Source: Lactobacillus kefiranofaciens (GTDB lineage: Bacteria > Bacillota > Bacilli > Lactobacillales > Lactobacillaceae). From it: a stretch of 64,000 nt of DNA. The DNA is taken from assembly GCF_900103655.1 (NCBI RefSeq), contig NZ_FMXC01000002.1, positions 1 through 64,000 of the forward strand, written 5' to 3'. Below the pieces are notes generated by a model. The model saw only the letters and a program-made list of their open reading frames with translations, made no database searches and was not told the origin of the DNA. A program made the position numbers and the translations under genes. Numbering within the stretch: position 1 is the first letter of the stretch; each line of letters opens with the position of its first letter. Below are positions 32,534-49,646 of this stretch, in pieces.

Positions 32534-32875
32534 TTATTTTGATCTATATTTTATTTTTTCTGTACCAATTGGATTTTGGTTAATCTTTTTGATCTTTGCT
32601 AGTTTATCTTCATAGTCTTTGATGACTAGATCGACATTCTTTCGTCCTCGCCAAGAGGCGTAGCCAAATGTCAGCATTCCTAATACACCAACGACCATCA
32701 GAATAATCCCAATGATAAAGAGGAATAAGATTGAAGAGTGGAAATAATAGATTAATACTAAACCTACTGCACTAATAGTTAGAAAGAGTTGAAACCAGTA
32801 GCTTAAGTTTCTAAGCATATGTTTTTGATAGTCTACTTCTTTTTTATAGCCATTTTGCATTTCCTCAATTGTCAT
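32534..32875 (-). CDS. Small membrane protein, last gene of the PTS operon
   Basis: Protein of 113 aa that I cannot assign to a family. Two hydrophobic helices (about residues 26-44 and 48-70) are followed by a basic, charged C-terminal segment (KDYEDKLAKIKKINQNPIG). It starts 22 nt after the IID gene and ends just before the terminator repeat, so it belongs to the PTS transcript. It does not look like ManO/DUF956, the usual small partner of mannose PTS operons. A role with the permease is possible but only suggested by position. Confidence 0.6.
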   Translation of the reverse strand: MTIEEMQNGYKKEVDYQKHMLRNLSYWFQLFLTISAVGLVLIYYFHSSILFLFIIGIILMVVGVLGMLTFGYASWRGRKNVDLVIKDYEDKLAKIKKINQNPIGTEKIKYRSK

Positions 32876-32897
32876 TCGGGATCTTCCTTTCTACAAA

Positions 32898-33740
32898 TTA
32901 GTACTTCAAACCTGGGTTGAAGAAACCAACTAATACACCGAGAAGTGCTACACCAATTAAGATAATCATGGTCCAAATAGCTGATACATGTTTCTTAGCC
33001 ATTAACCACCAGCAAAGCAAAGTTACAACAACAGTTAATAAACCTGGGAAGATACTATCTAACTGCTTTTGTAAGTTTAAGAAGACCTTACCTGTAGCAT
33101 CTTTTAATTCAAGTGAAGTAGTAACGTTTACCCAACTTGCCAAGACACCACCAACAACCATACCACCGATAATTGAGATGGCGTGACGGATAGCCTTACC
33201 TTGCTTACCAATTAAGATAGAAACGGCCTTGTCACCCAACTTGTAACCACGGAAGTAAAGGAAACGTTGACCGAAGTATGCGATGAGGTCCCAAACAACA
33301 ATGTAGAAGATCGCACCGACTGGTGAACCATTTTGTGACATCCCTAATGCCAAACCAAGCAAAATAGGAATTAAGGTACCATCGATTAATGAGTCACCGA
33401 TACCGGCGATAGGTCCCATCAAACCGGCACGCATATCGTTAATAGTTTCGCCATCAATACCCTTGCCATTAGCACGTGCCTCTTCCATTGAAGCGGTCGT
33501 ACCAATAATGACAGAACCAAGCATTGGGTTAGTATTGAAGAATGCTGTATAAGCATGAATATTCTTTTGTTGTTCGTCTTTATCTGGATAAAGCTCCTTG
33601 ATAATTGGCAACATTGAAGCTAAATATCCAAATGTCTGCATGTGTTCTTGTGAGAAACAGGTTAATGCTCCCCAGAACCATAAGTTAAAAGATTTGTTTA
33701 ATGTCTTTTTGCTAATCTTTTTTTCGTTACTTGCATCCAT
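32898..33740 (-). CDS. PTS mannose/fructose/sorbose-family permease, subunit IID
   Basis: Membrane subunit of a mannose-family phosphotransferase permease, 280 aa. IID signatures are clear: LNKSFNLWFWGALTCFSQEHMQTFGYLASMLP, FFNTNPMLGSVIIGTTASMEEARA, and MGPIAGIGDSLIDGTLIPILLGLALGM, with hydrophobic helices at the C-terminal end. Start and stop are 2 nt from IIC. Substrate within this family (mannose, fructose, sorbose, amino sugars) cannot be told from IID. Confidence 0.93.
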   Translation of the reverse strand: MDASNEKKISKKTLNKSFNLWFWGALTCFSQEHMQTFGYLASMLPIIKELYPDKDEQQKNIHAYTAFFNTNPMLGSVIIGTTASMEEARANGKGIDGETINDMRAGLMGPIAGIGDSLIDGTLIPILLGLALGMSQNGSPVGAIFYIVVWDLIAYFGQRFLYFRGYKLGDKAVSILIGKQGKAIRHAISIIGGMVVGGVLASWVNVTTSLELKDATGKVFLNLQKQLDSIFPGLLTVVVTLLCWWLMAKKHVSAIWTMIILIGVALLGVLVGFFNPGLKY

Positions 33741-33742
33741 AA

Positions 33743-34612
33743 TTAGATGTCCTCCTCTTCTTCATCGTCATCATCTGAACTTGAAGCTGAAACAGTTGAA
33801 GCAGATGAACCATTATCACTCTTAGCACCAAACATTTCAATTTCGTAGAAGATCATAGCGAAAAGCAATGAAATAATAGTAATTGAAACTAAGTTCAAGT
33901 GTAATGAAGCAGCTAAAGTAAAACCAACTAAAAATGGAATAAAGTCAACTGAAGTATTAACGATCTGACGAAGCAAGATAGCAATACCGACACATGGAAG
34001 CATAGCACCAACAGTGAACAACGTCTTCATTGGGATACCATCCATTGGTAAGGCGTTACGTAAAGCAGTAACAGCTTGAGCACCAAAGTGAGTCATTAAC
34101 ATAGTTGGCAAGAATGAGAAGCAAAGGTGTGAAAGCCATGGCCAACCAAAATCAACACCATAAAGTCTATTCAATTTGTTGTTTTCAATATCTTTCCAAC
34201 CAAAGGCCTGCCAAATCAAGTTCATAAAGGCAACTGCGTAGAACAATACTGAACCCACAGTACCTACTAAAGTACCTAATGACTTAGCCATGTTAGCAGC
34301 ATCACTACTAAATGGATTCAAACCACGTGAACTAATAGCAACCATAGCTAAAGGAATACCGATGTAAGAAATAGCACGAACATCGGCTGCTACAGTACCA
34401 CCTGGGGTTACTAAAGCGATGTAAACCAACTGAGTAGCAACACCACAAGCAATACCCAAAGGAACATTGCCCAAAATAATACCACAAACTAAGCCACCGA
34501 CAAGTGGACGTCCAATTGTATAGTTACCAACAGCCTGACCTGCCATACATGAGTTAGAACAAAGACATGCAAACAAGCCAAGGATTGCAGCTTGTAACCA
34601 ACTTATTGTCAT
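33743..34612 (-). CDS. PTS mannose/fructose/sorbose-family permease, subunit IIC
   Basis: Sugar-translocating membrane subunit, 289 aa, about eight hydrophobic segments. The family motif is NYTIGRPLVGGLVCGIILGNVPLGIACGVATQLVYIALVTPGGTVAADVRAISYIGIPLAM. The C-terminus ends in an unusual Ser-rich then purely acidic tail (SSSDDDDEEEEDI). It is the third gene of the IIA-IIB-IIC-IID operon. Confidence 0.93.
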   Translation of the reverse strand: MTISWLQAAILGLFACLCSNSCMAGQAVGNYTIGRPLVGGLVCGIILGNVPLGIACGVATQLVYIALVTPGGTVAADVRAISYIGIPLAMVAISSRGLNPFSSDAANMAKSLGTLVGTVGSVLFYAVAFMNLIWQAFGWKDIENNKLNRLYGVDFGWPWLSHLCFSFLPTMLMTHFGAQAVTALRNALPMDGIPMKTLFTVGAMLPCVGIAILLRQIVNTSVDFIPFLVGFTLAASLHLNLVSITIISLLFAMIFYEIEMFGAKSDNGSSASTVSASSSDDDDEEEEDI

Positions 34613-34650
34613 TTTTATTCCCTCTTTTTTATTTCAAGTTAACTAAGTTT

Positions 34651-35154
34651 TTAGAAACCAAACTTACTCTTGTATTTATCCCAGTAACCAATTTGTTTAT
34701 CTGGAAGAAGAGCAAAGTGAACCTTGTAGCCTTTTTCAGCTATGGCTTCAAAAGCTACACCTTCTTCTTTAGTAAATGATTGGTTATCGCCTAACTTAAT
34801 TGCACCTGGACGATCATTGCCCGGTCCTACGATAACTTCTTTAACATCGCTAGGAACAAAGCCCCAATCAACTAAAATTGTCTTCATGTCAAGTGGATTC
34901 TTAGTAATCAAGAAGTAACGGGTGTTGGAAGCTAAGACCTTATCCTTAACTTTGTTAAAGTGATCCATCGTCCAAACAAAGCACTTTTTACCTTGACCTT
35001 CAGCAGCTGACTTATAAGCCTCTTTCAAGATTGGATTGTCATGAGCTTTATCGTTAACTGCGATAATCCCATCACAAGGAACTTCCTTGGCCCAACGAGT
35101 AGTGATCAAGCCGTGAATCATACGGTCATCAATTCTAACAAGTGATACTGACAT
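34651..35154 (-). CDS. PTS mannose/fructose/sorbose-family subunit IIB
   Basis: Cytoplasmic phosphocarrier of 167 aa that passes phosphate from IIA to the incoming sugar. The phosphorylated histidine lies in SLVRIDDRMIHGLITTRWAKE (His at about residue 14), the invariant RxDDRxIHG motif. It is separate from IIA, unlike the fused IIAB of the main mannose PTS of lactobacilli, pointing to a specialised system. Confidence 0.93.
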   Translation of the reverse strand: MSVSLVRIDDRMIHGLITTRWAKEVPCDGIIAVNDKAHDNPILKEAYKSAAEGQGKKCFVWTMDHFNKVKDKVLASNTRYFLITKNPLDMKTILVDWGFVPSDVKEVIVGPGNDRPGAIKLGDNQSFTKEEGVAFEAIAEKGYKVHFALLPDKQIGYWDKYKSKFGF

Positions 35155-35172
35155 AATTTTCCCTCCTAAAAA

Positions 35173-35616
35173 TTAAATATCATTGTCATCATCATTATCA
35201 GTAGATGATGGAATTTCATATTGTTGTACAGCTGTTTTAGCTTCATTCAATGCAGTTTGAGCAATAGTTTCTTTGTCCATATTGTCTAAAGAAACAGTTG
35301 CAGTTAATGCCATGGTGAAATTCATTCCACCTAAAACTACTGCTCTATCCATATATCCCCGTGCTGAGAAAACATTCAAAAAAGTAGTTAATGGGCTGCC
35401 GCCGATAATGTCGGCCAAAACAATAAACTCATCACTTTCCTTAAAATCGTGTTGATCAAGAAAAGTTTCTACTTCTTTTTTAAAATCATCAGCAGATTTA
35501 CCATTATGCAAACATAAGGCAAATACACGATCATTTGCATCCCCTGCAAACATTTCCAAAGATGTCTTCACGCCTTCAGCAAAGCGACCGTGAGAAACCA
35601 TGATCAAATATTTCAT
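35173..35616 (-). CDS. PTS mannose-family subunit IIA
   Basis: Phosphocarrier of 147 aa. The HPr-accepting histidine is in YLIMVSHGRFAEGVKTSLEMFAG (about residue 9). VLADIIGGSPLTTFLNVF and AVVLGGMNFTMALTA are family motifs. Its C-terminal tail (SSTDNDDDNDI) is acidic like that of IIC. It is the first gene of the operon, 40 bp downstream of a promoter that overlaps a cre-like site. Confidence 0.92.
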   Translation of the reverse strand: MKYLIMVSHGRFAEGVKTSLEMFAGDANDRVFALCLHNGKSADDFKKEVETFLDQHDFKESDEFIVLADIIGGSPLTTFLNVFSARGYMDRAVVLGGMNFTMALTATVSLDNMDKETIAQTALNEAKTAVQQYEIPSSTDNDDDNDI

Positions 35617-35654
35617 ATTTCTACTCCTCTCGTTTGTTTACAGTGTAAATTTAC

Positions 35655-35683
35655 CATGTAATTAAACGCTTACATAGTGTCAA
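35655..35683 (-). promoter_or_regulatory. PTS operon promoter with embedded cre-like site
   Basis: Minus-strand TTGACA (35678-35683), 17-bp spacer, TACATG (35655-35660). The spacer holds TGTAAGCGTTTAAT (35661-35674), which matches the cre consensus except at the terminal CA. A CcpA dimer there would block the promoter. Confidence 0.62.
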
Positions 35684-35740
35684 ATGTAACTTGTTTTCCC
35701 TCTACTCTGATGACATTTGTCACATTTATGGCATTTATAA
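35678..35740. promoter_or_regulatory. Candidate operator: inverted ACATTTGWCA pair and 9-bp triple repeat
   Basis: TGTCAAATGT (35678-35687) and ACATTTGTCA (35713-35722) are inverted copies, one mismatch apart, separated by 25 bp. The first overlaps the PTS -35 box. The second begins three 9-bp direct units (CATTTGTCA, CATTTATGG, CATTTATAA; 35714-35740) that run into the -35 region of the divergent operon (-10 TATAAT at 35757-35762). This fits a binding site for the neighbouring response regulator; that link is inference. Confidence 0.5.
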
Positions 35741-35799
35741 CAATTATTATTTAGCTTATAATTGTTTTATGCAGTTTTAACATTATTAAGGAAGGTCCC

Positions 35800-36776
35800 A
35801 TGAGCAAAAGACGGTTAAACAAATACTTAGCAGTTGAATTGATCATTGCCATCGTGCTAGTAGCCCTAACATTAATCTTTTATTTCTGTCATGCAGGACA
35901 ACGAAGAATTGTCAAAATTGGCAGTAGCTATATGACAATGAATAATGAATTCATCCCATTATCAACGAACAGATTGCTAACCAAATTAATAATCGTAATG
36001 ATCACCTTTATAATCGTGATCCAGCTTTAAATCAACAAAAGCAAATAGAAGAAGTGCATTCTTTTATTAAAAAACGCGTTAATGCCATTATCATTAATCC
36101 GGTTAATGGTAATTCTCACAAGTTAAATCAAGCGCTTAAAGAAGCTAAAAAACAAGGTATCAAAATTGTAGTAATCGACAGTCCACTAAAAAACAGCAAA
36201 ATTGCTGATTGCACAATCGAGTCTGCCAACTATCACGCGGGGCAATTAGATGCTAAATATATGTTAAGCAGGCAAAAAAGCGGCAGAATTTTACTATTAG
36301 AACATAAATCTGCCATATCGGGTGTTGAACGAATTCAGGGCTTCCTCGACACAATTAAACAAAGCAAGAAAGGTAAACATTTTAAGATCGTCAAACGTCT
36401 CAATACCTATGGCCAATCAGAAATTTCACTGCCCTTAGTTAAAAAAGCCATTAAGCAAGGGACAAAATTTGACACAATTATGGGCCTAAACGATCGAGCC
36501 TCCATCGGTGCACTAGCAGCTATTGATTCAACTAATTATCCTTATCATGTATCTGTTTACAGTGTTGATGGATCCGAGAATATGAAAAAGATGTTTTCAC
36601 TTAATTCGAATGTAACAGCTACCGTAGCTCAATCTCCAATTAAAATGGCTAAAATTACTGTCAACACAACCTATTGGTTAATTAATCACCAAAAGGTTCC
36701 TAAGAAAATCACTATTCCGGTTTATTTAATCAATCAACATAATCTGGACCAACATAATATAAGTGGGTGGCAATAA
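35800..36776 (+). pseudogene. Membrane-anchored sugar-binding sensor protein (RbsB/LacI type), frameshifted
   Basis: Periplasmic-binding-protein type 1 fold, likely the extracytoplasmic ligand sensor for the kinase encoded next. An N-terminal helix (about residues 9-29) anchors it. The binding core includes VNAIIINPVNGNS, IKIVVIDSPL, GRILLLEHKSAISGVERIQGF and TIMGLNDRASIGALAAID. The frame breaks near 35959: one base is missing (probably a T in CCATT), after which the sequence continues in the next frame as INEQIANQINNRNDHLYN. Repaired, it would encode about 325 aa. The stop overlaps the kinase ATG (TAATG). No transporter permease is nearby. Confidence 0.82.
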
Positions 36777-38077
36777 TGAAATTTCATCAGATCGTTAAAT
36801 TGAAAAATCTATTGCTGGGAGTCAACTTTTTGGCTGTTTTATTCAATGCTGCTCTATATATTTTCATCAGTCGCTATATCAATGAAAATCAACTAGATTA
36901 CCAGTTGCTAACTAAGTTGAATTCTATCCCAACTAGTCCAATGGTTATCTTTTTAAGAAGTATTATTCTCTTCTTTATTCTCTCTGCAATCATTCTTTTT
37001 AGGCAAAACACGACTTTAACCAAAGCCCAAAATAATTTCATTCTTTTGCTTGAATTGATTCTTGCCTTAACTATTTTCTTTTCTCTCAACATGGCATATA
37101 ACGGCATTTTTCTATTAGTTTTCATCAATCTCTTCTTAAAAAATAAGGATGAAACCCAATTTAACAAATTTCGTTTATGGCTATTAATCGGTTTTATTCT
37201 ACTGATCCTTTTTTCTCTCTCTGATCAAAATTTAATTAATGAAGCAATCAAGGCGCCAAGTCTATCTGCATATATTGACTTTCTGCCCCAATCAACGAGA
37301 TCCATTATTTCTTTTACTCGTAATTTACTATCTCTAACCAATTTAATGCTATTTATTATTATTCTGGTTTTATACGCTCACTATTCTATTACCCGTGAAC
37401 AAGAATTAAAAAATAAAATGGCTATCAGTGAAGAATTTAAATCGATGGCTGACATTACTGAGCACGTCTCACATGATAAAGACCGTGAAAGATTAGCACG
37501 TGATATTCACGATACGATTGGTCATACTTTAACTGGTTTTGCAGTAGGCTTAGATGCCGCAATTGTTCTAATTGATGTTGATCCGGCAACTGCTAAAAAA
37601 CAATTGGGTAAGGTCTCTACTTCTGTTAAAGAAGGACTGATTAATATCCGTCAGTCGTTAAATCGAATTCGACCAGGAGCTTTAGATAATTACACCTTTA
37701 AAGCAGCACTCGAGGAACTACTGAACAAGTTTAAAAACATCTCTCATCTTAATATCACTTTAGAATATAACTGGGATGCAGAAAATCTAGAAAAATTAAC
37801 GGAAAACGTGATTTTTCACATCATCGAAGAAACTTTTACTAATTCTCTAAAACATGGACATGCTACTAAAGTATTAGTCATGTGTAATATGAAAGATAAT
37901 AATTATCAACTGATTATTCACAACAATGGTCAGAGTGCACCCCATTTCATCCCTGGCGTTGGTTTAAATTACTTAAAAGATCTAGTATCTAGTTTAGGTG
38001 GTCAAATTAAATTTAATGGCAAGGTTGGATTTACTACTATCGTAACGATCCCCAAGGAGGAAAATAATCATGATTAA
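36776..38077 (+). CDS. Sensor histidine kinase, NarL/LiaS-type (HisKA_3)
   Basis: Membrane histidine kinase, 433 aa. About six hydrophobic segments occupy residues 10-205, followed by the HisKA_3 helix DRERLARDIHDTIGHTLTGFAVGLDAA, with the phosphorylated His in RDIHD (about residue 242). The ATPase domain shows IIEETFTNSLKHGHATKV (N box) and GVGLNYLKDLVSSLGG (G box). No large sensory domain is exposed, so ligand sensing probably comes from the flanking binding proteins. I start at the ATG overlapping the upstream stop; an in-frame GTG at 36767 is an alternative. Confidence 0.88.
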   Translation: MKFHQIVKLKNLLLGVNFLAVLFNAALYIFISRYINENQLDYQLLTKLNSIPTSPMVIFLRSIILFFILSAIILFRQNTTLTKAQNNFILLLELILALTIFFSLNMAYNGIFLLVFINLFLKNKDETQFNKFRLWLLIGFILLILFSLSDQNLINEAIKAPSLSAYIDFLPQSTRSIISFTRNLLSLTNLMLFIIILVLYAHYSITREQELKNKMAISEEFKSMADITEHVSHDKDRERLARDIHDTIGHTLTGFAVGLDAAIVLIDVDPATAKKQLGKVSTSVKEGLINIRQSLNRIRPGALDNYTFKAALEELLNKFKNISHLNITLEYNWDAENLEKLTENVIFHIIEETFTNSLKHGHATKVLVMCNMKDNNYQLIIHNNGQSAPHFIPGVGLNYLKDLVSSLGGQIKFNGKVGFTTIVTIPKEENNHD

Positions 38078-38739
38078 AATTCTTATCGCTGATGACCAAG
38101 AATTAATTAAAGACTCTATCAAAATTATTCTTGAGGTTAATCCTAAATACACCATCACTGACACTGTCAAAAATGGTCAAGAAGCTCTAGAAAGCATTAA
38201 GAAGAATAAACCTGATGTAGTCCTCATGGACATCCGAATGCCAGTAATGGATGGCACGGTTTGCACCAAGTACATCAAAGAAAAATATCCTGAGATTAAA
38301 GTTATTATTTTAACTACGTTCGATGATGATGATTTTATTTTTAGCGCCTTAAAATATGGTGCATCAGGCTATTTGCTTAAAGGCGTTTCTCCCGATGAAT
38401 TATATAAAGCAATCGATACGGTTTATTCAGGTGGTGCGATGATTAATCCCGATATTGCTGGTAAGGTTTTTCGCCTATTTTCTAAAATGGCTCAATCCAA
38501 CTATTCAATTGCTGTAGATTGCGACGAAGCTAAAAATTTAAGTAAAAGCGAATGGCAAGTCATTCAACAAGTCGGCTTAGGACGCACCAACAAAGAAATT
38601 GCTCAAAAACTATTTTTATCAGAAGGAACTGTGAGAAATTATATTTCTAAAAATTCTGAGCTGCCTAGATCTTCGTGACAGAACGCAATTAGCTATTTGG
38701 GCTGTGCAAAAAGGAATTATTAACAAGGACTTTAACTAA
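38070..38739 (+). pseudogene. NarL/LuxR-family response regulator, C-terminal frameshift
   Basis: The receiver domain (residues 1-120) is complete: LIADDQELI, phosphoacceptor Asp in VVLMDIRMPVMDG (about 54), and LTTFDDDDFIF. The LuxR-type helix-turn-helix begins LSKSEWQVIQQVGLGRTNKEIAQKLFLSEGTVRNYISK. A run of five A at 38649-38653 then shifts the frame. With four A the sequence continues ILSCLDLRDRTQLAIWAVQK and ends at a TAA at 38737-38739 that overlaps the next ATG. The broken form still includes the recognition helix but has a wrong C-terminus, so it could keep partial function. Confidence 0.83.
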
Positions 38740-40031
38740 TGACCAAGGTAAAGAAAAATATTTTATTCCTTAGTATCTTGCTTCTTATAAGCATTTTAAC
38801 CGCTATCATTAAATACAATTCTTGGCAAGCAAAACATATTCTGACTGTTGGCATCTATACCGGTAGCCCCTGGGACGTACCTAACAACAACCAATATCGC
38901 GTCTTCGACTATGCCATCAAAGAATTCAAGAAAAAACATCCCAATGTACAAATTAGATATGAAAATGGTATTCAAAAATCTGATTATCGTAACTGGTTAA
39001 GCGAAAAAATGGTACAAGGAAAATCACCGGATTTAATGATCGTACCTAATAATTCATTTAATTTATTGGCTAGCAATGGTGCCTTTAAAGATTTATCTGG
39101 TCTAATGAGCACTAATAATGTATCCACTCAAAGTTTTTATCCAGTTGCACTTAAAGCTGGTGAACTAAAAGGGAAACAATATGCTCTGCCCTTTCAAGCC
39201 AATCCTAGATTTATGGTGATGAACAAAGATCTGCTTATAAAAAACAAAATATTCGCCCCATCATTTAACTGGACCCCAGCTGAATTAAAAAGGATTTGTC
39301 GGCAATTAGCTATTACTAAATATCAAGGATCAAAACTTGGCATTACTTCAGAATATAATTGTAGCGATGCTCTAATGGCATATAATTATCGGCTTAGCAA
39401 AACTAAAGATAATCCAATTCAATTAACCACCGCTGCCGCAATTAAGGGTTTTAACCTGATTGAGTATTTAAGAAATATTGGTCAATCTAAAATAGCTAAC
39501 AGAGATTTATTTGATCAAGGCAAAGTAGCTTTTACTCCCATTAGTTTAGCAAAATATCAGACTTATACTTCCTATCCTTACTATGTGACTAATGCCAATA
39601 ACTTTACTTGGAACTGCTTGCAAATGCCACATATTAAAAATGCAAAAGCAACTCAAGTAGATATTTCTATGTTTGCAATTTCCTCTAAGGCACGCAATCC
39701 TAAGCTAGCTTGGCAGTTTCTTAAGACTTTGTGCATCAACAAGAGAGTACAAGAAAAAGCAATGGAAATTAACAAGGGCTGCTCTGTCTTGCCTAAAGTA
39801 GTTTTAGATAAAAAAGTACAACAGGCTTTAAGTCATAATAGCCAGGGAAGCTTAACTTCCACCAAACTAAATGCCATTATGAATAATGGTTATACAGAAC
39901 CAAAATTTAGAAACTTTGGCGAAATCTATAGCGTATTAGACCATTCAATTACTAAAGCATTAGATACTAATACCTTAGACGATCAGATCTTTTATATTCA
40001 ACAGCAAGCTAATACCGAGCTAAAAAATTAA
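38739..40031 (+). CDS. Membrane-anchored extracellular solute-binding protein (family 1-like)
   Basis: ABC-type sugar-binding fold of 430 aa with an N-terminal membrane helix (residues about 8-26) but no lipobox cysteine. Visible features: LTVGIYTGSPWDVPNN, FKKKHPNVQIRYENG, KSPDLMIVPNNSF, LKGKQYALPFQANPRFMVMNKDLL and KARNPKLAWQFLKTL, all typical of carbohydrate-binding proteins. No permease or ATPase gene adjoins it. As the fourth gene of a coupled kinase-regulator operon, it is more likely a sensor than a transporter part. It ends 3 nt before repeat copy 2. Confidence 0.82.
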   Translation: MTKVKKNILFLSILLLISILTAIIKYNSWQAKHILTVGIYTGSPWDVPNNNQYRVFDYAIKEFKKKHPNVQIRYENGIQKSDYRNWLSEKMVQGKSPDLMIVPNNSFNLLASNGAFKDLSGLMSTNNVSTQSFYPVALKAGELKGKQYALPFQANPRFMVMNKDLLIKNKIFAPSFNWTPAELKRICRQLAITKYQGSKLGITSEYNCSDALMAYNYRLSKTKDNPIQLTTAAAIKGFNLIEYLRNIGQSKIANRDLFDQGKVAFTPISLAKYQTYTSYPYYVTNANNFTWNCLQMPHIKNAKATQVDISMFAISSKARNPKLAWQFLKTLCINKRVQEKAMEINKGCSVLPKVVLDKKVQQALSHNSQGSLTSTKLNAIMNNGYTEPKFRNFGEIYSVLDHSITKALDTNTLDDQIFYIQQQANTELKN

Positions 40032-40032
40032 G

Positions 40033-41440
40033 CTAAAAGAAAAACTTCGAAGCTGAACTTTTTTCAACTTCGAAGTTTTTGGATATATATTTATTTTTCT
40101 TTTCAAAATAGATTGCCAGTCCCAAAATCAATCCGACTAAACTGAAAATAATCCAGCTAAATCCCATTGAAAACAACGGGAAATATTCTTGCCCAAAATT
40201 AATTATGCTCTGCGCAAAAGCAGTATTTTTCAATTCAACTGGCAAGGCATTAATTAAGTCAAAAAATGCTGGGATCAAAGTTAGGTAGCAGGTAACTTTA
40301 TACACAAGTGGATTATTTTTAAAAATTGGGGGATAGCAAACCTAAAAGAATGACACTAATAGCAACTGGGTAAATAAACATCAATACCGGTGTCGACCAA
40401 GCAACGATCCGATCTAGGCCCAAGTTAGCAAAAATAAATGAAAGCAGACAGTTGCCTAGTAAAAATGTCTTGTAAGAAATCTTGGGAAAGCGCTTATGAA
40501 AATCTTCCGCAAAGGCAATTACCAAACCCATCGCTGTAGTTAAACAAGTAATTGTCGTCAGCGTTGCCAGCAAGACATTGCCGAAGACGCCCATATAGTA
40601 GTGGGAAATCTGTGATAAGGTTATTCCGCCATTAGAAGCCAGCTTGAATTGATGCAGACTGCTTGCGCCGAGCCAGATTAAACAAACATAGATGACGCCG
40701 ATTGCCAGCATCCCCCAAAGACCGCTTTTGGCTAAAGTCAATGAAACATCCTTTTGTTTAGTAATACCTAATTCCTTAATTGCGGTAATTACGGCCACGC
40801 CGAAGATCAACGCAGCTAAAGCATCCATCGTGTTATATCCTTGCAAAAATCCGTTGGTAAAACCAGCGCTTCGATAAACTGCAGTAACAGCTGTAGTGCC
40901 AGCTTTTCCTAAGGGATTTATAAACGCCATTAAAAAAATGACAAACAGCAACACAATAAAGAGCGGATTTAATACTTTACCGATCAAATCGGTGATATTG
41001 CCTTCGGTAATCGATAAGGCAAAAACCAGGATAAAGAAGATTCCCGTGAAAATTAATAACCCCCACTTTTGCATGCCAGCCGGTAAATATGGCGCAAAAC
41101 CAATCTCATACGGAACCGTGGCAGTTCTTGGCGTGGCCGCAAATGGTCCAATCGTCAAATGGATCAGCACTAACAAAATCGAAGCAAAGCTCATCCCCAC
41201 TGGTCTCGCTAGTTCATAAAGACCATTTGAGCGCGTGATACTTAAAGCCATTAAAGCTAAAAGCGGCAATAAAACACCAGAGGCCAAAAAGCCAAGCCCA
41301 GAAACCAGCCAGTTGCTCCCCGCCATTTGACCTAAATGAACAGGGAAAATTAAGTTTCCCGCCCCAAAAATCATGCCAAAGAACAAAGAAGCAATAACCA
41401 GAATTTTCTTAAATGATAAATTGTCTTTTTCCAATAACAT
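40033..41440 (-). pseudogene. brnQ: Branched-chain amino acid:cation symporter BrnQ, frameshifted
   Basis: LIVCS-family importer of Leu, Ile and Val with about 12 membrane helices. The first 373 codons are intact (MIFGAGNLIFPVHLGQMAG, family-typical N-terminus) and stop at 40319 in a wrong frame. A run of five C on the minus strand (40328-40332) explains it: with four C the frame continues SPIFKNNPLVYKVTCYLTLI into the remaining roughly 90 codons, ending at 40033. Intact length would be about 468 aa, near normal. The break removes the last two or so helices. I start at the ATG 41440, which is preceded by AAAGG. Confidence 0.88.
40034..40080. repeat. 47-bp direct repeat, copy 2, containing a terminator hairpin
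   Basis: Identical to 32463-32509. Here the hairpin ends the sensory operon on plus and overlaps the last codons of the brnQ remnant on minus. Confidence 0.95.
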
Positions 41441-41497
41441 CAATCCTTTACAAAATAACTGCTTTTTAATATACCGAAATCCAAAATTCTGGTCAAT

Positions 41498-41627: not shown

Positions 41628-43262
<1,635 letters not shown>

Positions 43263-48188: not shown

Positions 48189-49646
48189 ATGGAATGTACA
48201 AGAGAAAAACGTTACTTACCTTATAATAAATGGGATGCCGACACTTTGCTTCATTTACAAGCACAAGCTGCTAATTCCCCATATCAGTTGCATTATCATT
48301 TACACCCTATTTCCGGACTGGTAAACGACCCAAATGGATTTTCCTATTTTAATGGTGCATATCACCTGTTTTATCAATCATATCCATTTGGCGCAGTGCA
48401 CGGTTTAAAGTCATGGGTTCACTTTAAATCTCAAGATTTGGTTAATTGGACTAATTTGGGCTTAGCTGTTGAGCCTGATACAATGGCTGATTCTCACGGA
48501 GCATATTCTGGCTCAGCACGTGAAATTGACGGCAGACTTTTCTTAATGTATACCGGCAATCACCGTGATGAAAATTGGGTCCGTACCCCTTATCAAATCG
48601 GTGCTTGGATGACTAAAGATGGCAAAGTTTCAGATAAAACTATCCTATTTAAAAATCCGGATCACATTACTGAACACTTCCGTGATCCACAGATTTTAAA
48701 ACAAAATGATACTTACTATGCAATTTTAGGAGCACAAGACAAAGCCGAAAAGCATGGCCACATTGATATTTGGAAATCTCAAGACCTTAAAAATTGGGAA
48801 GAACTTGGCTTTTTAGACATGGGCACAGAGCCCATGGGCTATATGATCGAATGTCCTAATATTGTTAGAGTCGACGGCAAAGTGGTCGTCATCTTCTGTC
48901 CACAAGGATTAGATAAGAAGATCGCCGACTACGACAATGTCTACCCTGACATGTACATCATTGCCGATGACATTGATTTTGAAAATCATAAATTGATCAA
49001 TCCAGGCAAATTGCACAACTTGGATAAAGGCTTTGATGTTTACGCTACCCAAGCCTTTAACGCACCAGATGGTCATGCTTACGAAGTCAGCTGGGTTGGT
49101 TTGCCTGATACTACCTACCCAACTGATGATGAAAACTGGGCTAACTGCTTGAGTCAGGTCAAGGAACTGGTAATCAAGGATGACAAATTGATCCAAAAAC
49201 CAGTTAAAGCAATGAGGGCGCTGCGTCAAGATGAAGAACAAGTCAGCGACCCAATAATTAGTGAAAAGGCTGGACAGCAATACGAATTAAAATTAAAAAT
49301 TGCCCAAGGTCAAACCGGCAATTTACATTTAGCAGCTAATGAAGATTTAACTAACAGTCTACAAATCAAATTTGATACCCAAAACGGTAAATTAGTACTA
49401 GATCGTGCTCAAGCTGGACAAGCAGTGGCAGTTGATCATGGCACAAGTAGAGAAACTAGTTTAGTAGCTAACAAAGATTTAGAACTTGATATCTTTGTCG
49501 ACCACTCATTAATCGAAGTTTTCGTCAATGGCGGCGAAGAAGTCTTAACCGGTCGCTACTTTGCTGATCAAGCTAACCCAAAGATTGCTTTTGAGCAAAA
49601 TACTGCTTACACAGGCCAACTTTGGCAGATGAAGACAATTCTTTAA
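48189..49646 (+). CDS. scrB: Sucrose-6-phosphate hydrolase
   Basis: Glycoside hydrolase family 32, splitting sucrose-6-phosphate into glucose-6-phosphate and fructose; 485 aa. The nucleophile Asp is in HLHPISGLVNDPNGFSYFNGAYHLFYQ. The RDP motif is EHFRDPQIL and the acid/base Glu is in MIECPNIV. The C-terminal beta-sandwich ends with LDIFVDHSLIEVFVNGG. GGAGG lies 7 nt before the ATG. No signal peptide, so cytoplasmic. scrR follows 14 nt downstream. Confidence 0.95.
   Translation: MECTREKRYLPYNKWDADTLLHLQAQAANSPYQLHYHLHPISGLVNDPNGFSYFNGAYHLFYQSYPFGAVHGLKSWVHFKSQDLVNWTNLGLAVEPDTMADSHGAYSGSAREIDGRLFLMYTGNHRDENWVRTPYQIGAWMTKDGKVSDKTILFKNPDHITEHFRDPQILKQNDTYYAILGAQDKAEKHGHIDIWKSQDLKNWEELGFLDMGTEPMGYMIECPNIVRVDGKVVVIFCPQGLDKKIADYDNVYPDMYIIADDIDFENHKLINPGKLHNLDKGFDVYATQAFNAPDGHAYEVSWVGLPDTTYPTDDENWANCLSQVKELVIKDDKLIQKPVKAMRALRQDEEQVSDPIISEKAGQQYELKLKIAQGQTGNLHLAANEDLTNSLQIKFDTQNGKLVLDRAQAGQAVAVDHGTSRETSLVANKDLELDIFVDHSLIEVFVNGGEEVLTGRYFADQANPKIAFEQNTAYTGQLWQMKTIL

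Follow-up and report, generated by a model that had tools for sequence, protein, structure and literature searches.

Within the first 64,000 bases of a 187,618-base contig from the 2.28-Mb genome of Lactobacillus kefiranofaciens (the window; genome label G000), we analyzed two divergent operons that together span positions 32534 to 40031. Domain identities of the window proteins were taken from a Pfam search. The minus-strand operon encodes the separate components of a mannose-family phosphotransferase system (PTS): a levD-like IIA (35173..35616; EIIA-man, E = 1.8e-16), a levE-like IIB (34651..35154; PTSIIB_sorb, 1.1e-32), a levF-like IIC (33743..34612; EII-Sor, 2.7e-53), and a levG-like IID (32898..33740; EIID-AGA, 2.2e-85). 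The last gene of this operon (32534..32875) encodes a small, levX-like membrane protein of 113 residues with hydrophobic segments, which matched no Pfam family above the cut-off.

The plus-strand operon encodes a binding protein, a histidine kinase, a response regulator, and a second binding protein. The levQ-like gene occupies two frames, the first holding the membrane helix and the start of the binding domain (35800..36030, with an ATG at 35800, ended by a frameshift) and the second holding the remainder of this RbsB-type protein (35949..36776; Peripla_BP_4, 7.3e-29). It is followed by the gene for the levS-like kinase (36776..38077; HisKA_3, 1.3e-15), which starts at a TAATG junction and has an additional in-frame GTG at 36767; this kinase is the sole HisKA_3 match at E ≤ 0.001 in the genome. 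The levR-like response regulator gene (38070..38678; Response_reg and GerE) is truncated by a frameshift in the DNA-binding domain, and its C-terminal end lies in another frame (38635..38739). The levT-like gene (38739..40031) encodes a binding protein of the SBP_bac_8/SBP_bac_1 type (SBP_bac_8, 2.5e-25) with an N-terminal anchor.

Hydropathy indicates a single N-terminal hydrophobic helix in each binding protein, at residues 9-27 of LevQ and 8-26 of LevT. LevT has no Cys within its first 40 residues; LevQ has a single Cys among its first 60, preceded by FYF, which is not a lipobox. A crude hydropathy scan places approximately five membrane helices ahead of the HisKA_3 domain of LevS, without a large outside domain. 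Among the open reading frames (ORFs) between 32534 and 40031, we found no permease besides the PTS. On all of these points, from the identities of the four sensing proteins and the divergent five-gene PTS to the anchors, the kinase topology, and the lack of another permease, the data agree with an earlier note on this DNA. Its description of a tightly coupled operon holds for the TAATG junctions (36774-36778 between LevQ and LevS, 38737-38741 between LevR and LevT) and the 8-base overlap of LevS with LevR, but not for levQ and levR as single open frames; the LevR/LevT junction is present solely in the C-terminal levR frame. The operon had also been taken as intact, although two of its four sensing genes are frameshifted.

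Between the operons lies a putative LevR box, TGACAWWTGTCA (35711..35722), an exact match and the only one with at most one mismatch in the window, where the chance mean is 1.01, so this single match is by itself no evidence. A second, degenerate copy (35678..35689) reads TTACATTTGACA on the strand of the PTS operon, and most of the orthologous PTS promoters, viewed by eye, show a comparable second site.

An alignment scan retained the best 80 of 562 loci; 63 of these have the four sensing genes together, 8 have some of them missing or cut off, and 9 hold distant kinases for which neither LevQ nor LevT was recognized at the chosen thresholds. An earlier single-protein scan of genome contigs with the kinase confirmed no relative and was replaced by this one. 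The window proteins show homology over most of their length to the Lev proteins of Streptococcus sanguinis, S. intermedius, and S. parasanguinis, and the four sensing proteins also to those of S. caballi. All nine genes are co-located in S. sanguinis, with identities of 41% (LevQ), 35% (LevS), 64% (LevR), 37% (LevT), 48% (IIA), 66% (IIB), 61% (IIC), 64% (IID), and 52% for the protein encoded at the same place as the fifth PTS-operon gene. The comparison with S. sanguinis settles that the window locus belongs to the LevQRST kind.

We assign the locus, with a probability of roughly 0.93, as the LevQRST four-component sensor together with its target mannose-family PTS operon, with levQ and levR frameshifted in this genome. 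The system is already known as LevQRST with levDEFG, and the window locus is a Lactobacillus copy of it. The earlier note had considered the system undescribed and its arrangement unfamiliar; this cannot be upheld, as a study of S. mutans shows genetically that two binding proteins of different folds and one kinase control a mannose-family PTS (PMC3043104). According to the same text, all four Lev proteins are needed, fructose and mannose are the inducers, LevR binds both promoters in vitro, including that of levD, and similar operons are named in S. gordonii, S. sanguinis, L. johnsonii, L. salivarius, C. acetobutylicum, and D. longicatena (PMC3043104). The proposal in the earlier note that two binding proteins feed one kinase that controls the PTS is supported by the S. 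mutans genetics and the gene-for-gene match to S. sanguinis. The locus could instead descend from another binding-protein two-component triad, such as XylFII-LytS-YesN or HptA-HptSR, that gained a second binding protein by chance, and an RbsB-type binding protein beside a kinase and a regulator would be expected of such a triad as well. The window regulator, however, is of the NarL type (GerE) and not of the AraC type, and 63 of the 80 loci, some of them from named Streptococcus species, share the same gene order, with the kinase and then the regulator following the first binding protein and the second binding protein coming last. This conserved four-gene order contradicts the triad alternative, which we regard as extremely improbable.

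Co-occurrence of the sensor and the PTS is consistent with the LevQRST assignment. In the genus, the kinase profile matches 22 of 75 genomes at E ≤ 1e-20, 19 of them at E < 1e-100 and the other three at 1e-25 to 1e-32; PTS IIC at E ≤ 1e-40 is found in the same 19 genomes, so that linkage to the PTS is tight in the genus. The earlier note had held that frequent occurrence of the four genes without the PTS would refute its idea. Such separation is not seen in the genus. More widely it is common: no mannose-family PTS was seen in the fetched DNA of 28 of the 63 four-gene loci, some of which end at contig ends. A family search with the kinase (E ≤ 1e-20, 397 genomes) gave 20 genomes, 12 of which, including G000, match at E < 1e-80 over most of the length, the other 8 holding distant kinases. 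Eight of the 11 close relatives besides G000 are in the genus and share the divergent nine-gene set, with some genes broken. Across the order, a profile of the membrane part of the kinase has matches in 51 of 395 genomes, which represent 6 of 80 genera, and a plasmid search with the kinase returned distant kinases only, none covering 80% of the query.

The kinase also occurs in 3 of 26 genomes of a second Lactobacillaceae genus, and these three loci differ in arrangement. In L030, the PTS lies tail-to-tail behind the sensor. In L031 (7537-15244), LevQ-LevS-LevR-LevT diverges from a fused-IIAB manLMN-type PTS with DUF956, not levDEFG, and the shared intergenic region contains a one-mismatch box. 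The third locus (L032:8559-12725) is decayed: LevQ lies in two frames, and the frame of LevS continues into the last part of IIB, after which come IIC, IID, and the small membrane protein; LevR, LevT, and IIA were not found there. Individual loci carry further ORFs: one that by eye resembles a HAD phosphatase between the PTS and levQ in L. jensenii (L028:8158-8946), and, after levT in L025 (12562-13989), a DeoC-type aldolase identified by domain search and an ORF that is GntR-like by eye, with similar ORFs in L027 (12958-14424).

The box between the operons is a DesR-type box that is common to the PTS promoter regions. Also in favor of the assignment, expression of fruA in S. mutans requires a dyad at -72 to -59, described as the likely LevR target (PMC9241797). 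A site with at most one mismatch is present upstream of IIA in 20 of 20 regions (the 19 genus loci and L030), 17 of them exact. For the four-gene loci at large, we asked for a site with at most one mismatch in a stretch of at most 420 bases that surrounds the start of the linked transporter, or that follows levT in loci without a recognized one, and compared the counts with those of 59 permuted palindromes; the 63 loci are related by descent and are not independent trials. The box is in place at 53 of the 63 loci (permuted palindromes: mean 0.46, maximum 3). By neighbor, the counts are 28 of 29 for a levDEFG-type PTS, 5 of 6 for another mannose-family PTS, 11 of 14 for a second RbsB-type gene, and 9 of 14 where no transporter was recognized. 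When whole loci are searched, 60 of 63 contain a box (permuted mean 7.05, maximum 20). The ten misses are L176, L147, L142, L144, L179, L113, L116, L127, L167, and L174, three of which offered fewer than 300 bases of sequence. No box site occurs in the 135,152 bases of the nine loci where the kinase stands without LevQ and LevT.

These counts bear on the proposal that the sensor controls something other than the PTS, the two being neighbors merely by common inheritance. The 28 four-gene loci without a visible mannose-family PTS are what this proposal would lead one to expect. Yet in those same loci the box tends to the matching place, before the second RbsB-type gene or after levT, and in L030, where the PTS has moved away from levQ, both operons keep a one-mismatch box, so that the rearranged PTS retains its own. 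We consider it very improbable that the sensor controls something other than the PTS.

In such loci the sensor may be coupled to importers other than levDEFG. At L146 (3088-11249), a domain search placed the sensor directly behind a ribose-type ATP-binding cassette (ABC) importer: a BPD_transp_2 permease lies before LevQ, with an ABC ATPase and a second Peripla_BP_4 protein encoded ahead of the permease, and a one-mismatch box lies upstream of the first gene (position 2987). ORF translations point to ATPase, permease, and binding-protein genes after levT at L151. Of the loci with a second RbsB-type gene, L146 is the one examined by domain search, and the others were tentatively assigned from profile matches. 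The 63 four-gene loci are mostly from Bacillota, and one (L174) is from Sphaerochaetaceae. With moderate confidence, we propose that LevQ-LevS-LevR-LevT is a portable sugar-sensing module, mostly of Bacillota, that is coupled to an adjacent importer, whether a levDEFG-type PTS, another mannose-family PTS (the Selenomonas and Mitsuokella loci, as well as a single Lactobacillaceae genome with manLMN and DUF956), or an ABC importer of the ribose type. The constant element would be one regulator box at the importer promoter, and some Lactobacillus lineages, including that of the window, would keep the importer while the sensor decays. This modular picture may be the only new part of the analysis; a literature search with few subscription journals found no study of the ABC-linked form.

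Several observations weigh against the assignment and the role given to the box. At the level of whole genomes, the one-mismatch box is found 95 times in 14 genomes compared to 99 times for a reversed control, so a regulon cannot be compiled from one-mismatch matches to the 14-letter box by themselves. The box is also not specific to LevR, since the consensus of the DesR and pneumococcal RR11 sites, ATGACA-N2-TGTCAT, has the same form (PMC11034029). In S. caballi, one of the 28 loci mentioned above, neither a PTS nor a box accompanies the four genes within the fetched DNA, which extends 8 kb before and approximately 2 kb after the four genes to the contig end. Gain and loss of a single linked block could also account for the co-occurrence seen in the genus; such linkage gives the same pattern, so co-occurrence speaks for coupling of the genes and not for control. 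S. mutans, L. johnsonii, and L. salivarius are not among the 80 kept loci, and homology was measured to other species. The literature searches made here turned up neither expression nor binding work on a lev locus from Lactobacillus. Finally, LevR of S. mutans also controls fruA (PMC3043104); neither of the two GH32 genes in the genome is near a box match.

Exact boxes are found at the lev locus in 10 of the 14 genomes. Away from it, the exact boxes in L. jensenii (G331) and in G022 (L227:4984-8421 and L228:4975-7807) precede another kinase operon with ABC transporter ORFs, as judged by eye, with a NarL-type regulator also present in L227; by eye, these operons resemble TCS11/DesKR, which agrees with the DesR/TCS11 motif. 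Other one-mismatch sites of G000 include L229 and L230. Cross-talk of such systems with LevR is possible where both occur.

We next consider the state of the sensing genes, reading intactness with profiles over the 19 genus loci, with one genome per species. In the window, levQ has no single open frame and carries a one-base frameshift near 35950 relative to the G311 and G418 copies. In levR, a one-base frameshift falls in an A-run (38649-38653), and the ORF ends at 38678, before the end of the DNA-binding domain. Profiles from relatives place the missing parts in other frames, LevQ at positions 10-63 and 62-331 of 331 and LevR at positions 1-197 and 194-221 of 224, and they read the kinase, LevT, and the five PTS-operon genes as whole. 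With frameshifts in levQ and levR, the window lacks a full set of four whole LevQRST components. Of the 19 loci, 13 have every sensing gene whole, among them G439, in which a contig end interrupts the PTS; the pair LevQ and LevR is whole in 15. Besides the window, sensing genes are broken in G311, the closest relative found, where an in-frame TGA interrupts LevQ, a lesion different from that of the window; in G226 and G433, where LevR, LevT, and also IID are broken; and in G421, where LevT is broken. The G419 locus spans two contigs, and its kinase is disturbed at a contig end.

Ratios of nonsynonymous to synonymous differences (pN/pS) between the window and G311 are 0.235 for LevQ, 0.187 for LevS, 0.316 for LevT, and 0.08 for LevR, compared to 0.042-0.152 for the PTS-operon proteins and MutS; these values are rough because pS is near saturation. 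In the intact pair G171/G148, the ratios are 0.11 (LevQ), 0.075 (LevS), 0.13 (LevT), and 0.035 (LevR), so that those of the window pair are approximately twice as high for all of the sensing proteins and not for LevQ alone. Long neutral decay of LevQ is accordingly unlikely, and any loss would be recent.

The frameshifts could also be sequencing or assembly errors, with the system intact in the strain. The levR change sits in a run of A; the LevQ ratio lies near those of LevS and LevT, with no sign of long neutral decay despite the caveat on saturation; and levS, levT, and the PTS are whole, all of which is in keeping with error. On the other hand, the levQ lesion is outside any long homopolymer, levQ is broken by another lesion in G311, other sensor genes are broken in G226, G421, and G433, and mutL, mutS, and groEL are open in the window. 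We judge error to be the less likely explanation, though one of some weight. If instead the lesions in levQ and levR are real, induction of the PTS is probably lost in this strain and the operon would be left at basal expression.

LevQ matches structurally characterized ribose-binding proteins (best E = 6.8e-41, with 92 distinct sequences at E ≤ 1e-5), and LevT matches SBP_bac-type sugar-binding proteins (best E = 6.5e-23). By eye, LevQ keeps most ligand-site positions in these alignments, namely the Asn and Phe of NNxF, the Asp that precedes Ser in VDS, the Arg ahead of the GF stretch, the Asp in DGS, and the Gln in AQSP, which we take to form the sugar site of ribose-binding proteins. At the position after the Asp that is Arg in ribose-binding proteins, the rows show Ser, with Thr in one of them, and the Asn of LND is replaced by Asp in both rows of the second genus. 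This conservation fits a real sugar binder; it does not name the sugar.

In the mechanism we propose, LevQ (RbsB fold) and LevT (SBP_bac_1/8 fold) would each be held outside the cell by one helix and bind a sugar, probably fructose or mannose if S. mutans is a guide. Both would act on the membrane part of LevS, which would phosphorylate LevR; LevR would then bind the TGACAWWTGTCA box between the operons and activate the PTS genes. We infer that the ligand, the direction of control, and the use of the box are the same in Lactobacillus, and that the window copy is inactive.

Some neighboring genes of the window may also be described. A brnQ-like gene, named by eye, adjoins levT on the minus strand (40033-41443) and appears to be split into ORFs of 374 and 90 residues; counting it, three frameshifted genes may fall within approximately 4.5 kb. 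groEL lies near the lev locus in the window (41628-43259) and in three Streptococcus species (L117:15079-16665, L120:14961-16547, and L124:14962-16557), a proximity that may reflect chance or an old neighborhood. A GH32 domain is encoded at 48297-49202, within a 498-residue open frame, with no box match nearby.

As the system has already been worked out in S. mutans, the window locus has little novelty of its own. Within the genus, though, apparent natural mutants of the sensor have close relatives whose copies are whole, and such pairs would permit testing what LevQ and LevR add to PTS use. The occurrence of one box before different importers could serve as a simple guide to what LevR-like regulators control in gut Clostridia and Negativicutes.

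Among known systems, the XylFII-LytS-YesN and HptA-HptSR triads resemble the window locus in that an extracytoplasmic binding protein feeds the kinase, but they have one binding protein and an AraC-type regulator, whereas the window has two binding proteins and a GerE regulator. Pneumococcal TCS11 and DesR of Bacillus subtilis share the form of the regulator site; the TCS11 operon as described there has no binding proteins, and TCS11 controls its own operon, which includes ABC transporter genes (PMC11034029). The closest counterpart is LevQRST-levDEFG of S. mutans. The window genome differs from it in the frameshifts of levQ and levR, in that no fruA target with a box was found, and in its divergent PTS operon, which lies downstream in S. 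mutans (PMC3043104). Both systems have a pair of anchored sugar-binding proteins, a response regulator, and a kinase that has up to five membrane helices but little in the way of an outside domain; a fructose/mannose PTS adjoins each, with no ABC transporter beside the locus (PMC3043104). The operons of L. johnsonii and L. salivarius, which belong to the same genus or family as the window genome, are similar by their description in that report (PMC3043104).

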